A stretch of 35,491 nucleotides of DNA from Planctomycetaceae bacterium (GTDB lineage Bacteria; Planctomycetota; Planctomycetia; Pirellulales; UBA1268), in assembly GCA_021300535.1 (NCBI GenBank), contig JAJTED010000132.1:1-35491 (forward strand), read 5' to 3'. Below, one piece after another: positions 18,447 to 22,516 of this stretch. Below the pieces are notes generated by a model. It had not been told where the DNA came from. It made no database searches and worked only from the letters and a program-made list of their open reading frames with translations. Each line of letters opens with the position of its first letter. Within the stretch, counting starts at the first letter, position 1. The position numbers were made by a program, and so were the translations under genes.

Positions 18447-19094
18447 ATGGTGACGATCGTCGATTACGGCAGCGGCAACCTGCGGAGCGTGCAGAAGGCC
18501 TTCGAGCACCTCGGGGCCGCGGCCACGATCACGGATGATCCGCAAATCGTGGCTGCCGCCGAGCGGCTCGTGCTGCCCGGCGTGGGCGCGTTCGGCGATG
18601 CGATGCGCGAGCTCCGCCGCCGCGACCTGGTGGAGCCGATCGTCGCCCATGTCCGTGCCGACCGGCCGTTTTTCGGTATCTGCATGGGCCTGCAATTGCT
18701 CTTCAACACCGGCTGGGAGGGGGGCAGGCACGAGGGCCTAGGGCTGCTCGCCGGCGACGTGGCGCGGTTCGATCTGCCCGCCGGCTACAAGGTGCCCCAC
18801 ATGGGCTGGAACACCGTCACCTGGCGGCCCGGGGTGTGCCCCGCCGGCTGTGCCAACACCGTCACCTGGCGGCCCGGGGTGTGCCCCGCCGGCTGTGCCG
18901 ACGGGGAGCATTTCTACTTCGTCCACTCCTACCACGCCCGCCCGGCCGACGAGTCGGTCGTCGCCGCCGTGGCCGACTACGGCGGCCCTTTGTGCGCGGC
19001 CGTGGCTCGCGGCCGGCTGTTCGCCACGCAGTTTCATCCCGAGAAGAGCCAGGCGGCCGGACTGCGTCTGCTGCGGGCATTTCTCGCGTCCTGA
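18447..19094 (+). CDS. hisH: Imidazole glycerol phosphate synthase, glutaminase subunit HisH
   Basis: Class I glutamine amidotransferase that feeds ammonia to HisF in histidine synthesis. The protein has 215 aa. It shows DYGSGNLRSV, LPGVGAFGDAM, the nucleophile C79 in FFGICMGLQLLF, KVPHMGWN and YFVHSYHA. TQFHPEKSQ contains H197 and E199 of the catalytic triad. Between MGWN and GEHFYFVHSY the 15-residue block NTVTWRPGVCPAGCA occurs twice in tandem. Removing one copy gives 200 aa, the usual size. The insert is in a surface region and leaves the triad intact, so activity may survive. hisA follows 28 bp downstream. hisF is not in the window. Confidence 0.93.
   Translation: MVTIVDYGSGNLRSVQKAFEHLGAAATITDDPQIVAAAERLVLPGVGAFGDAMRELRRRDLVEPIVAHVRADRPFFGICMGLQLLFNTGWEGGRHEGLGLLAGDVARFDLPAGYKVPHMGWNTVTWRPGVCPAGCANTVTWRPGVCPAGCADGEHFYFVHSYHARPADESVVAAVADYGGPLCAAVARGRLFATQFHPEKSQAAGLRLLRAFLAS
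18810..18899 (+). repeat. Perfect 45-bp tandem duplication inside hisH
   Basis: Units 18810-18854 and 18855-18899 are identical at every base and encode the same 15 residues. The length is a multiple of three, so the frame is kept. Complete identity points to a very recent event or to an assembly error. Confidence 0.9.
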
Positions 19095-20042: not shown

Positions 20043-21044
20043 ATGGCCACCGACGTCCGGATCAAGGAGCAGTTGCCCGAGCTCACGCGGCGGATCATCG
20101 AGACGTATCAGGACGTGCCGACGATCCACTACCTCGGCCACTGCCCGCTGCCGAACTACGAGTCGATCGTCTCGGCCTGCGAGGATCTCAAGGAGATTCT
20201 CTATCCGGGCTATCGTCGTCGTGAGAACCTGCACCTCGGCAACGTCACCTATCACGTGGGCGACCTCGTCGACGGGCTGCACGACAAGCTGACGACGCAG
20301 ATCGGCCGGGCCCTGCGACATGCCCTCTCCGCCCAGCGGGCCGCGGCCGAGCAGGGCGTCGAGCTGCCGGGCGTGTCGGAGGCTGTGCAGCACTGCAGCG
20401 AGGAGGGCGACTTCGAGGCCCTCGGCCAGGCGAAGGCCGTGCAGTTTCTCGAGCAGATTCCCGGCCTGCGGAAGGTGCTGGCCACGGACGTGCAGGCAGC
20501 CTTCGACGGCGACCCGGCCGTCCGTACGCTCGACGAGATCATCTTCTGCTACCCCGGCCTCGAGGCGGTCACCATCCACCGTCTCGCCCACCTCCTGCAC
20601 CGGCTGGAAGTGCCGCTCATCCCGCGGATCATGGCCGAGTGGGCCCACTCGCGGACCGGCATCGACATCCATCCCGGGGCCACGATCGGCGATCACTTCT
20701 TCATCGACCACGGCACCGGCGTGGTGATCGGTGAGACCTGCGAAATCGGCAGCCACGTGAAGCTCTACCAGGGCGTCACGCTGGGCGCCCTGTCTTTCCA
20801 GACCGACGGGGATGGCAACCTCGTCCGCGGGACGAAGCGGCACCCGACGATCGAGGACCGGGTGGTGATCTACGCCAACGCCACGGTGCTCGGCGGCGCG
20901 ACCCGGATCGGCCACGATTCCGTGATCGGCAGCAACGTGTGGCTCACCCGGTCGGTCGATCCGCACACGACCGTCGTGCTGGAGAAGCCGAAGCTCCGCA
21001 TGCGCGGCGAGATGCCCGAGCAGGGCATCGATTGGCAGATCTGA
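20043..21044 (+). CDS. cysE: Serine O-acetyltransferase (EpsC-type)
   Basis: Makes O-acetylserine from serine and acetyl-CoA, the first step of cysteine synthesis. The 333-aa protein has the long helical N-terminal domain of the EpsC type. A C-terminal left-handed beta-helix of hexapeptide repeats follows. [25 protein letters not shown] carries the catalytic His and Asp residues, and GVTLGALS and [21 protein letters not shown] follow. The extreme C-terminus ends GIDWQI, without the Ile-rich tail that binds cysteine synthase in enteric CysE. So a cysteine synthase complex cannot be assumed. It stands alone behind its own promoter and is followed by a stem-loop. Confidence 0.92.
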
Positions 21045-21092
21045 CCGCGGGTCAGGGTGATCACGCGTTTGCCGGTGCTGGGAAGCCCGGAG

Positions 21093-21160
21093 CGTGAGCT
21101 GAGGGAATCCGTGTCGATGCACGAGTATTGGACCGCATTCCCTCGGCTCGCGCCTTTTGA
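21093..21160 (+). terminator. Long stem-loop with T-run after cysE
   Basis: Arms 21093-21108 and 21137-21152 pair over 16 positions with no mismatch when two G-U pairs are allowed, closing a 28-base loop. CCTTTTGA follows at once. The wobble pairs work only in a plus-strand transcript, so this is probably the 3' end of the cysE message. Confidence 0.55.
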
Positions 21161-21335
21161 TGGTGCACGTTCCCCCAGTCTTGTTCTCAGCTTGCCACGT
21201 GCGAACGGCACAAGAAGCCCCCGGCGGAAGCCGGGGAGGATGATTCACGCGAACCTGCGGCATCCTGCCACAGTTCGCTTGGCGGGCCTCCGCCCGCTGG
21301 CAGTCAACCCGGCCCTCCGGGCCTGGCGCTCACAC

Positions 21336-21360
21336 AAAAAGCCCCCGGCGGAAGCCGGGG
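21336..21360 (-). terminator. Intrinsic terminator in repeat unit 2 (minus strand)
   Basis: Read on the minus strand, CCCCGGC-TTCC-GCCGGGG is followed by CCGCTTTTT-like sequence (GGCTTTTTG). It faces transcripts leaving the ATP synthase operon and hydrolase gene. Confidence 0.5.
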
Positions 21361-21459
21361 AGGATGATTCACGCGAACCTGCGGCATCCTGCCACAGTTC
21401 GCTTGGCGGGCCTCCGCCCGCTGGCAGTCAACCCAGCCCTCCGGGCCTGGCGCTCACAC

Positions 21460-21485
21460 AAAAAGCCCCCGGCGGAAGCCGGGGG
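21460..21485 (-). terminator. Intrinsic terminator in repeat copy 3 (minus strand)
   Basis: An eight-pair stem, CCCCCGGC with GCCGGGGG around TTCC, followed by CTTTTT on the minus strand. It is about 270 bp after the hydrolase stop and is the first good intrinsic terminator met by that transcript. Confidence 0.55.
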
Positions 21486-21583
21486 ACTCCGGGTGGCATG
21501 CCTTCCCTGGTGCCATGCGATGTGGGTTTGAACCGGGAAATTGCGGGCCGTCATGCGGCATGGGGGGCGGTGTGGTTTTCGTT

Positions 21584-21614
21584 CCCGGAGTCCCCGGGCT
21601 TCCGCCCGGGGCTT
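21584..21614. repeat. Inverted REP-like copy facing 21463-21493
   Basis: The 31 bases are the reverse complement of 21463-21493 except at two positions. Those two positions pair with each other in the hairpin (C-G in one copy, G-C in the other), so the stem is preserved. The pair encloses 90 bp without a gene, in the layout of a BIME-type doublet. Confidence 0.75.
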
Positions 21615-21754
21615 CATGGAACAGGGGCGGGGCCTATTTTCTGGGCTTTCAGGGCAAGCGAATGCGATCTTTCCCCAGACTGCGCTGCTCGGGCATCGGC
21701 ATCTGACAGGACTCGTGAGGTTTGGGCCGCATGCATCCCGGCCAGCCGAACGCA

Positions 21755-22516
21755 TCAATCGAGGAACGTGCGGATCGCGTCGCGGTAGGCCGGGTCCAGC
21801 GAGACGTCGTTGTGGCCGGCTGCCGGGAAGGTCTGCTCCGTGACGATGCCTGGCCGGAACGCCTCGATCAGCCGCCGCGTATGGTCGCCGGGCACGACCT
21901 CGTCGCGGCCGGCCGTGATCACGAGCGTGGGCACGGGGACCTGCGGCGCGTCCTGCACCGTCTCGAAGCGGTCGGCGAGCAGGAGCCGCACCGGGAGGAA
22001 GGGAAACAGCCGGCCGGCGAGCGCGAGGATGCTGTCAAACGGCGTCACGAGCACCAATCTCCGCACGGGTTTCGTGGCCGCGAGCCGGGTCGCGACGGCC
22101 GAGCCCAGGCTGCGGCCGAGGACGTCGACGTCGGGGTGCCGCGACCGAACGTCGTCGAACACCGCCGCCGCATCGGCGTGCAGCGACCGCTCCGTCGGCC
22201 GGCCGCCGCTGCCGCCATAGCCGCGATAGTGCGGGGCGTAGATGGCATGGCCGGGGAACGCGGCGGCCAGTTCGGGAACCGTCCGCGACACGTCCTCCGC
22301 GTTGCCACCGAAATAGAGGATCGCCCGCGGTCCGTCGTGGGGCCGGGCGGGGATCCGCAGGGTCGCGCCCGGCACGTCGAGCGTCGTCGTGGGCACGCGG
22401 CCGAGGGCCGGCACGGGATGAAAGAGCAGCGCCCGCTGGGCGCAAAAGAGAACTCCGCACAGTCCGGCGTAGGTCGCCACGAGCACCCGCGTCGCCACGA
22501 TTGCGGCCCGCTTCAT
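21755..22516 (-). CDS. Alpha/beta hydrolase, membrane-anchored
   Basis: 253-aa serine hydrolase of the ABHD13/BEM46-like group. A hydrophobic N-terminal segment (about residues 8-26) suggests an anchor. FHPVP is followed by the oxyanion-strand phrase AILYFGGNAEDV and YRGYGGSGGRPTE. The nucleophile elbow GRSLGS gives S136, and D205 in AGRDEVVP and H235 in AGHNDVS complete the triad. The substrate is unknown; thioesterase, lipase or peptidase activity cannot be distinguished. It starts 15 bp after the atpC stop, so it is probably the last gene of the ATP synthase transcript, although no functional tie is known. Confidence 0.87.
   Translation of the reverse strand: MKRAAIVATRVLVATYAGLCGVLFCAQRALLFHPVPALGRVPTTTLDVPGATLRIPARPHDGPRAILYFGGNAEDVSRTVPELAAAFPGHAIYAPHYRGYGGSGGRPTERSLHADAAAVFDDVRSRHPDVDVLGRSLGSAVATRLAATKPVRRLVLVTPFDSILALAGRLFPFLPVRLLLADRFETVQDAPQVPVPTLVITAGRDEVVPGDHTRRLIEAFRPGIVTEQTFPAAGHNDVSLDPAYRDAIRTFLD

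Follow-up and report, generated by a model that had tools for sequence, protein, structure and literature searches.

RAYTs are usually held responsible for the rise of REPs and REPINs to hundreds of copies, and RAYT movement is rarely seen. The repeats described here, from a planctomycete genome, resemble the REPINs or BIMEs that accompany RAYTs (Bertels and Rainey 2011, PMC3116915) in their two inverted hairpins and spacer, their hundreds of extragenic copies, their tandem clusters and compensatory changes, and the presence of a low-copy Y1 gene flanked by hairpins. They differ from those systems in the hairpin foot, which is AAG here and GTAG or GGAG there, in left (L) and right (R) arms that differ from one another in a fixed way, and in the placing of the doublet within an element that has terminal inverted repeats and 8-bp duplications. 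Class 3 TnpA_Y1 enzymes occur mainly in Planctomycetes, Acidobacteria and Proteobacteria, and their genes are flanked by atypical, potentially high-copy hairpins (PMC6006769). The present system shares with these “REPtron-like” systems (PMC6006769) the HVH, W[TSA] and YVxxxQ motifs, an extended conserved N-terminus, a planctomycete host and high-copy atypical flanking hairpins. The foot in that description is CnGA, whereas here an AAG foot is combined with a GNRA loop and, unlike in that description, the type of hairpin varies with the class 3 gene across the family (REP-A, REP-B and others).

Two further kinds of element are close relatives in behavior or layout. ISRm22 and other REP-targeting insertion sequences (PMC1525189) resemble the present element in that an IS4-group element inserts at one fixed position of a REP palindrome and leaves direct repeats; those of ISRm22 are 6 bp long, whereas the duplications here are 8 bp, the host is a planctomycete, and most copies of the element are MITEs with REPs of their own. 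The BrickBuilt MITE (PMC4596501) is likewise intergenic, ends in inverted repeats and contains a tandem array that varies in length, but its bricks are 23 bp long, while the array here is built of REP-hairpin units of 124 or 175-179 bp. REPINs, class 3 enzymes, REP-targeting IS elements and MITEs with internal repeats are each already known; searches of the open-licence literature found no description of a MITE with a REP doublet as cargo and REPs as its insertion sites.

The window, the whole stretch of 35,491 nucleotides that was analysed, is one contig (C196) of a 4.0-Mb MAG of 197 contigs that is 86% complete. REP arrays sit in it between the 3' ends of two convergent genes, one cysE-like and one hydrolase-like. 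The features of this interval are as follows.

20043..21044, + strand: upstream serine acetyltransferase (cysE-like) gene, product named from its translation
21082..21111, + strand: REP-B hairpin GAAG-CCCGGAGC-GTGA-GCTGAGGG, left arm of the target doublet, from the REP-B comparison
21135..21154, − strand: interrupted REP-B right arm, GCATTCCCTCGGCTCGCGCC, identical to the target consensus at 20/20 positions
21147..21154, + strand: left copy of a presumed 8-bp target duplication, CTCGCGCC, its right partner lost with the right end
21155..21169, + strand: left terminal inverted repeat of the MITE, TTTTGATGGTGCACG, from terminal-repeat comparison
21155..21208, + strand: left outer segment of the MITE, from alignment, present also at about 16 other loci
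21209..21332, + strand: first 124-bp tandem unit, opening with an L-type hairpin at 21219-21236
21333..21456, + strand: second 124-bp tandem unit, opening with an L-type hairpin at 21343-21360
21457..21620, + strand: two-arm core, a REPIN-like doublet of about 160 bp, from core length and similarity to other copies
21463..21493, + strand: L arm, with foot AAG, stem CCCCCGGC/GCCGGGGG, loop GGAA and inner motif ACTCCGGG
21584..21614, − strand: R arm, inverted, with stem CCCCGGGC/GCCCGGGG and loop GGAA, one compensatory pair apart from L
21619..21643, + strand: right outer segment, a probable remnant, about 19/25 identical and placed exactly beside the R arm
21755..22516, − strand: downstream alpha/beta-hydrolase-like gene, product named from its translation

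The two arms had been described in a first-pass annotation as 31-base inverted copies with two mismatches that face each other in the hairpin, C-G in one copy and G-C in the other. Alignment of 21463-21493 with the reverse complement of 21584-21614 bears out both points: the sequences differ solely at positions 8 (C/G) and 19 (G/C), which are paired partners in the 8-bp stem of a GGAA-loop hairpin. Independent inverted-repeat detection recovered the same pair as arms of 31 nt, 94% complementary and 90 nt apart. Each arm runs in the order foot AAG, 8-bp stem closing the GGAA loop, then ACTCCGGG.

The conservation of pairing was followed in 137 arms from the fetched loci, picked by their spacer only with the stem ignored. 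Stems were fully Watson-Crick paired in 121/137 arms and kept 7/8 pairs in 12 more, so variants do not break the stem as often as they keep it. The L-arm stem of the window is the commonest (58/63 L arms in the fetched loci), and R arms carry CCCCGGGT/ACCCGGGG in 49/71 cases and the window type, CCCCGGGC/GCCCGGGG, in 13/71. Between L and R arms pair 5 differs (C-G/G-C), and usually pair 8 as well (C-G/T-A), both differences being compensatory; an additional paired stem type, CCCCGGAC/GTCCGGGG, occurs in other genera. Nearly all loops are GNRA or GNNA on one strand across genera (GGAA, GGGA, GCAA, GCGA, GTGA), and the foot reads AAAAAG, AAGAAG or GAGAAG, not the GTAG or GGAG tetranucleotide of canonical TnpA_REP. 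These comparisons show that pairing matters, yet that each stem sequence is also strongly conserved. The C-G/G-C swap in the window is a fixed left-/right-arm difference common to other genera, not the outcome of many independent events, and it reflects a few old ones. The earlier claim of “selection on structure rather than sequence” therefore holds insofar as the stems are kept paired, but is too strong, because the swap is fixed by arm, recurs in other genera, and accompanies a stem sequence that is nearly invariant within each arm type.

The hairpin pattern AAGCCCCSGGYGGRARCCSGGGG has 281+300 = 581 copies in the 4.0-Mb MAG and the reversed-pattern control has none, while the 164-bp two-arm element recurs at dozens of other genomic places with 85-92% identity; the hairpin pair is thus not a product of chance, and with hundreds of hairpins the window's copies are not the only ones in the genome. 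The core is exactly 160 bp long in 55/70 copies, and the 164-bp core folds as single-stranded DNA with z = −4.85. In a sample that is non-random, since most loci were chosen for their resemblance to the window copy, all of 80 hairpin clusters lay outside the genes called by a simple, rough codon-usage gene caller, and among the 58 clusters with both neighbors called, 30 had convergent neighbors and 5 had divergent neighbors. Most of the named relatives in which this hairpin motif occurs are planctomycete MAGs, with one set from Lac Pavin according to its sample name, though another set is labelled Kuenenia.

Flank comparison with positional scoring revealed that many copies extend past the core, by about 55 bp on its left side and about 110 bp on its right, and that these extended copies end in inverted repeats, TTTTGRTGTTGCGCG ... 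CGCGCAACATCAAAA. In most sampled copies the core lies in, or keeps remnants of, a ~323-bp unit with TTTTGRTGTTGCGCG ends; cores without any trace of outer segments, tandem units or neighbors were very few in the fetched loci. Twenty end pairs in these loci are mostly separated by 322-325 bp; the longer spans comprise 446 and 572 bp, equal to one and two extra 124-bp units, and 927 and 1614 bp, which are arrays. The 8-mers just outside the 20 end pairs match at a mean of 5.8/8 positions, against 3.6 for shuffled pairs (sd 0.32; maximum 4.8 in 2000 shuffles), and are exact duplicates in 5/20; when widths of 3 to 12 were tested, exact matches appeared at width 8 only. An 8-bp target-site duplication points to a DDE-type element and not to an IS200-type or single-strand Y1 mechanism. 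With terminal inverted repeats, target-site duplication and no coding capacity over the 20 end pairs (the window copy showing the left end only), the unit has the properties of a MITE, its ~323 bp being too short for a transposase gene. Tandem arrays of 124-bp or 175-179-bp units were found between the same terminal repeats, and these arrays therefore grew after insertion. One pair of terminal repeats 1.6 kb apart (L207 on C145, 1118-2731), which resembled an autonomous element, holds only REP-unit arrays and no transposase gene.

Taken together, the alignments indicate that the unit spread in this genome is probably the ~323-bp MITE of a DDE transposase and not the bare doublet. The first-pass assignment to a BIME/REPIN is accordingly right about the two inverted hairpins, the constant length, the extragenic placement and the hundreds of copies, but not about the replicating unit here, since most sampled copies extend past the doublet. 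In other genera the doublet is repeated alone, without outer segments or terminal repeats.

The larger element that holds the window pair begins at 21155, and two more L-type hairpins in 124-bp tandem (21209-21484) precede the pair. On the right, the outer segment fades at about 21643, the remnant at 21619-21643 has a weak alignment score of 26, where shuffling gives a 95% level of 25, and no right terminal repeat of the window copy was found. These features are best read as those of a copy that entered the REP-B arm at 21155 between the convergent genes, gained two extra 124-bp units and lost its right end. Elsewhere in the window, positions 18810-18899 hold a perfect 45-bp tandem duplication in a hisH-like gene, which yields an in-frame 15-residue repeat, NTVTWRPGVCPAGCA, and is either a recent duplication or an assembly artefact.

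The point of entry of the window copy is shared by many others. The consensus of REP-B, a second palindromic repeat, is AAG-CCCGAGGC-GYGA-GCCGAGGG-AATGCG. At a match threshold of at least 14/20 to the REP-B half arm, 32/68 element ends (47%) abut such an arm at one fixed position near the tip of the hairpin, as compared with 18/12,200 random sites. A few other ends abut the equivalent position in REP-A hairpins, and the window element itself starts right after a perfect half arm (20/20). The preferred landing sites of this small cut-and-paste element would seem to be other REP hairpins.

A search for the end sequence in 72 genomes of the family revealed a related autonomous element in a same-genus genome, G017. 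This 1.5-kb element has the same ends and encodes a transposase with a Pfam DDE_Tnp_1 domain (3e-14, 53.7 against a cut-off of 23), whose best NCBIfam matches, IS701 and IS4, fall below their cut-offs (best IS701 model 73.6 bits against 150). Because Pfam DDE_Tnp_1 is the sole model passed, “IS4/IS701-like” is to be taken as a description of this protein and not as family membership. Partial copies of the DDE element are present in G008, and no copy of it was found in the window's own assembly, an 86% complete MAG. In G080, REP-B doublets are enclosed in short units, about 172 bp long, that have the same ends (L237 3-174; L231 1501-1766), and the unit at L231 1501-1766 is flanked by GTCACAAG/GCCACAAG, matching at 7/8 positions. 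Another genus therefore seems to show the same packaging, around a different REP.

We consider it highly probable, judging from these comparisons of sequence, that the window pair is a REP doublet, or REPIN-like core, and that a MITE, a non-autonomous DDE element, carries it as cargo. Such an element would move by cut-and-paste through a DDE transposase like that of the 1.5-kb G017 element. In this family the doublet would have originated and multiplied as single-stranded DNA hairpins handled by a class 3 Y1 (RAYT-like) transposase with hairpin-flanked genes, either before the MITE captured it or alongside that capture; for this phase, we infer that a RAYT was the agent of spread. The history would then likely be one in which a REPIN of a class 3 system was captured in this lineage by a REP-targeting DDE element, and this order of events is itself tentative. 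The arms may, in addition, serve as transcription terminators at gene ends.

A pure REPIN or BIME, in which the doublet itself would be mobile in this genome, spread as single-stranded DNA by a RAYT-like enzyme with the outer segments as hitch-hiking flank, would account for the constant doublet, its hairpins, the single Y1 gene with arms of the family on either side, and the repetition of the bare doublet in other genera. We regard it as improbable all the same, since most sampled copies come with outer segments, tandem units or neighbors, many of them with inverted-repeat ends and 8-bp duplications, and very few cores are devoid of any outer homology. No target duplications are known from Y1 enzymes of the IS200/IS605 type. 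The 158-159-bp cores beside the Y1 gene, moreover, are just 77-80% identical to the dispersed cores.

That Y1 gene, an intact 165-aa frame at L041 14109-14606, is the only Y1_Tnp match in the genome and sits between arms of the same hairpin family, as a RAYT gene does in REPIN systems. Its protein passes Pfam Y1_Tnp weakly (26.6 against a cut-off of 23) and fails the REP-associated transposase model NF047646 (18.9 bits against 80). Together with 13 relatives it has HVH, a W[ST] motif and Y-x4-Q (YVxxxQ), all invariant or nearly so, and a conserved N-terminal WTTYGSWLPGD block. This is the class 3 TnpA_Y1 signature of HVH, W[TA]-like motif, Y-x4-Q and conserved N-terminal extension (Table 1 of PMC6006769), and the motifs fit assignment to that group; the flanking hairpins do not have its CnGA foot. 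The predicted model (pLDDT 77) matches ISDra2 (2xma, E 1.8e-5) and a RAYT (4er8, E 3.6e-4) at a probability of 1.00, consistent with an HUH-Y1 fold, and a PDB sequence search with the protein gave irrelevant weak matches only. The RAYT (TnpA_REP) proposed by the first-pass annotation is therefore present in the form of one Y1 gene between same-family arms, but it departs from the canonical TnpA_REP, and the hairpin foot differs from GTAG; as the spreader of the bare doublet in this genome it would give way to the DDE transposase that the ~323-bp unit with 8-bp duplications marks instead.

Across the family, a hairpin with AAG, an 8-bp stem and a GNRA loop lies ≤600 nt from 6/14 class 3 genes and from 0/21 control loci, and three further class 3 genes have related hairpins (REP-A or REP-B relatives). 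The link between RAYT and doublet is incomplete, because class 3 genes were not found in the doublet-rich genomes G046, G048, G049, G074 and G079, which either weaken that link or point to gene loss or incomplete assemblies. At L086, L090 and L091, class 3 genes of other genomes are flanked by REP-B, not REP-A, hairpins, which gives the impression that a change of gene goes with a change of hairpin type. A shared palindrome close to TGTACNNNNGTACA lies just before the start codon of class 3 tnpA at L081, L082, L083, L085, L087, L088, L089, L093 and others, in several cases with a TTGAC box upstream, and may be an operator over the promoter.

It is very unlikely that the repeats are ordinary intrinsic terminators, in which a GC-rich hairpin and its T tract would be conserved for ending the transcription of neighboring genes. 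The L arms, read outward, do consist of a GC hairpin with TTTTT or TTCTT behind it (5 sites resemble terminators, where 0.8 would be expected), and the position of 30/58 clusters between convergent genes agrees with such a role, so that termination at gene ends by these arms is plausible. The R arm of the window has no T tract, however, and terminators would not share 160-bp cores, outer segments, terminal repeats, tandem arrays and target duplications; as a full explanation they are contradicted by terminal repeats with 8-bp target duplications, and a terminating role may be a side effect and not the reason for the copies. Scarcely credible is a structured non-coding RNA family whose GNRA tetraloop hairpins are selected as RNA, for although nearly every loop across genera is of the GNRA or GNNA type on one strand, d(GNNA) loops are stable in DNA as well, the Rfam search gave no family at the gathering score, copies lie between genes in both orientations, the window copy showed no promoter-like site, and mobile-element features account for the copies.

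Beyond this locus, we lean, with some reserve, toward a wider proposal: that REP doublets packaged between the ends of a REP-targeting DDE insertion sequence undergo double-strand cut-and-paste into other REPs, independently of their single-strand RAYT-type enzyme, and so give rise to self-nesting REP mosaics. The copies of one lineage show clear signs of a non-RAYT route in their DDE-type ends, their 8-bp duplications and their use of REPs as landing sites. If the proposal is true, the number of REPs in a genome is not necessarily a gauge of RAYT activity, and nested insertion together with tandem growth can produce mosaic BIME-like clusters. The data also extend what is known of the little-studied class 3 Y1 transposases of Planctomycetes, and suggest a rule for their hairpins: an AAG foot, an 8-bp stem and a GNRA loop.
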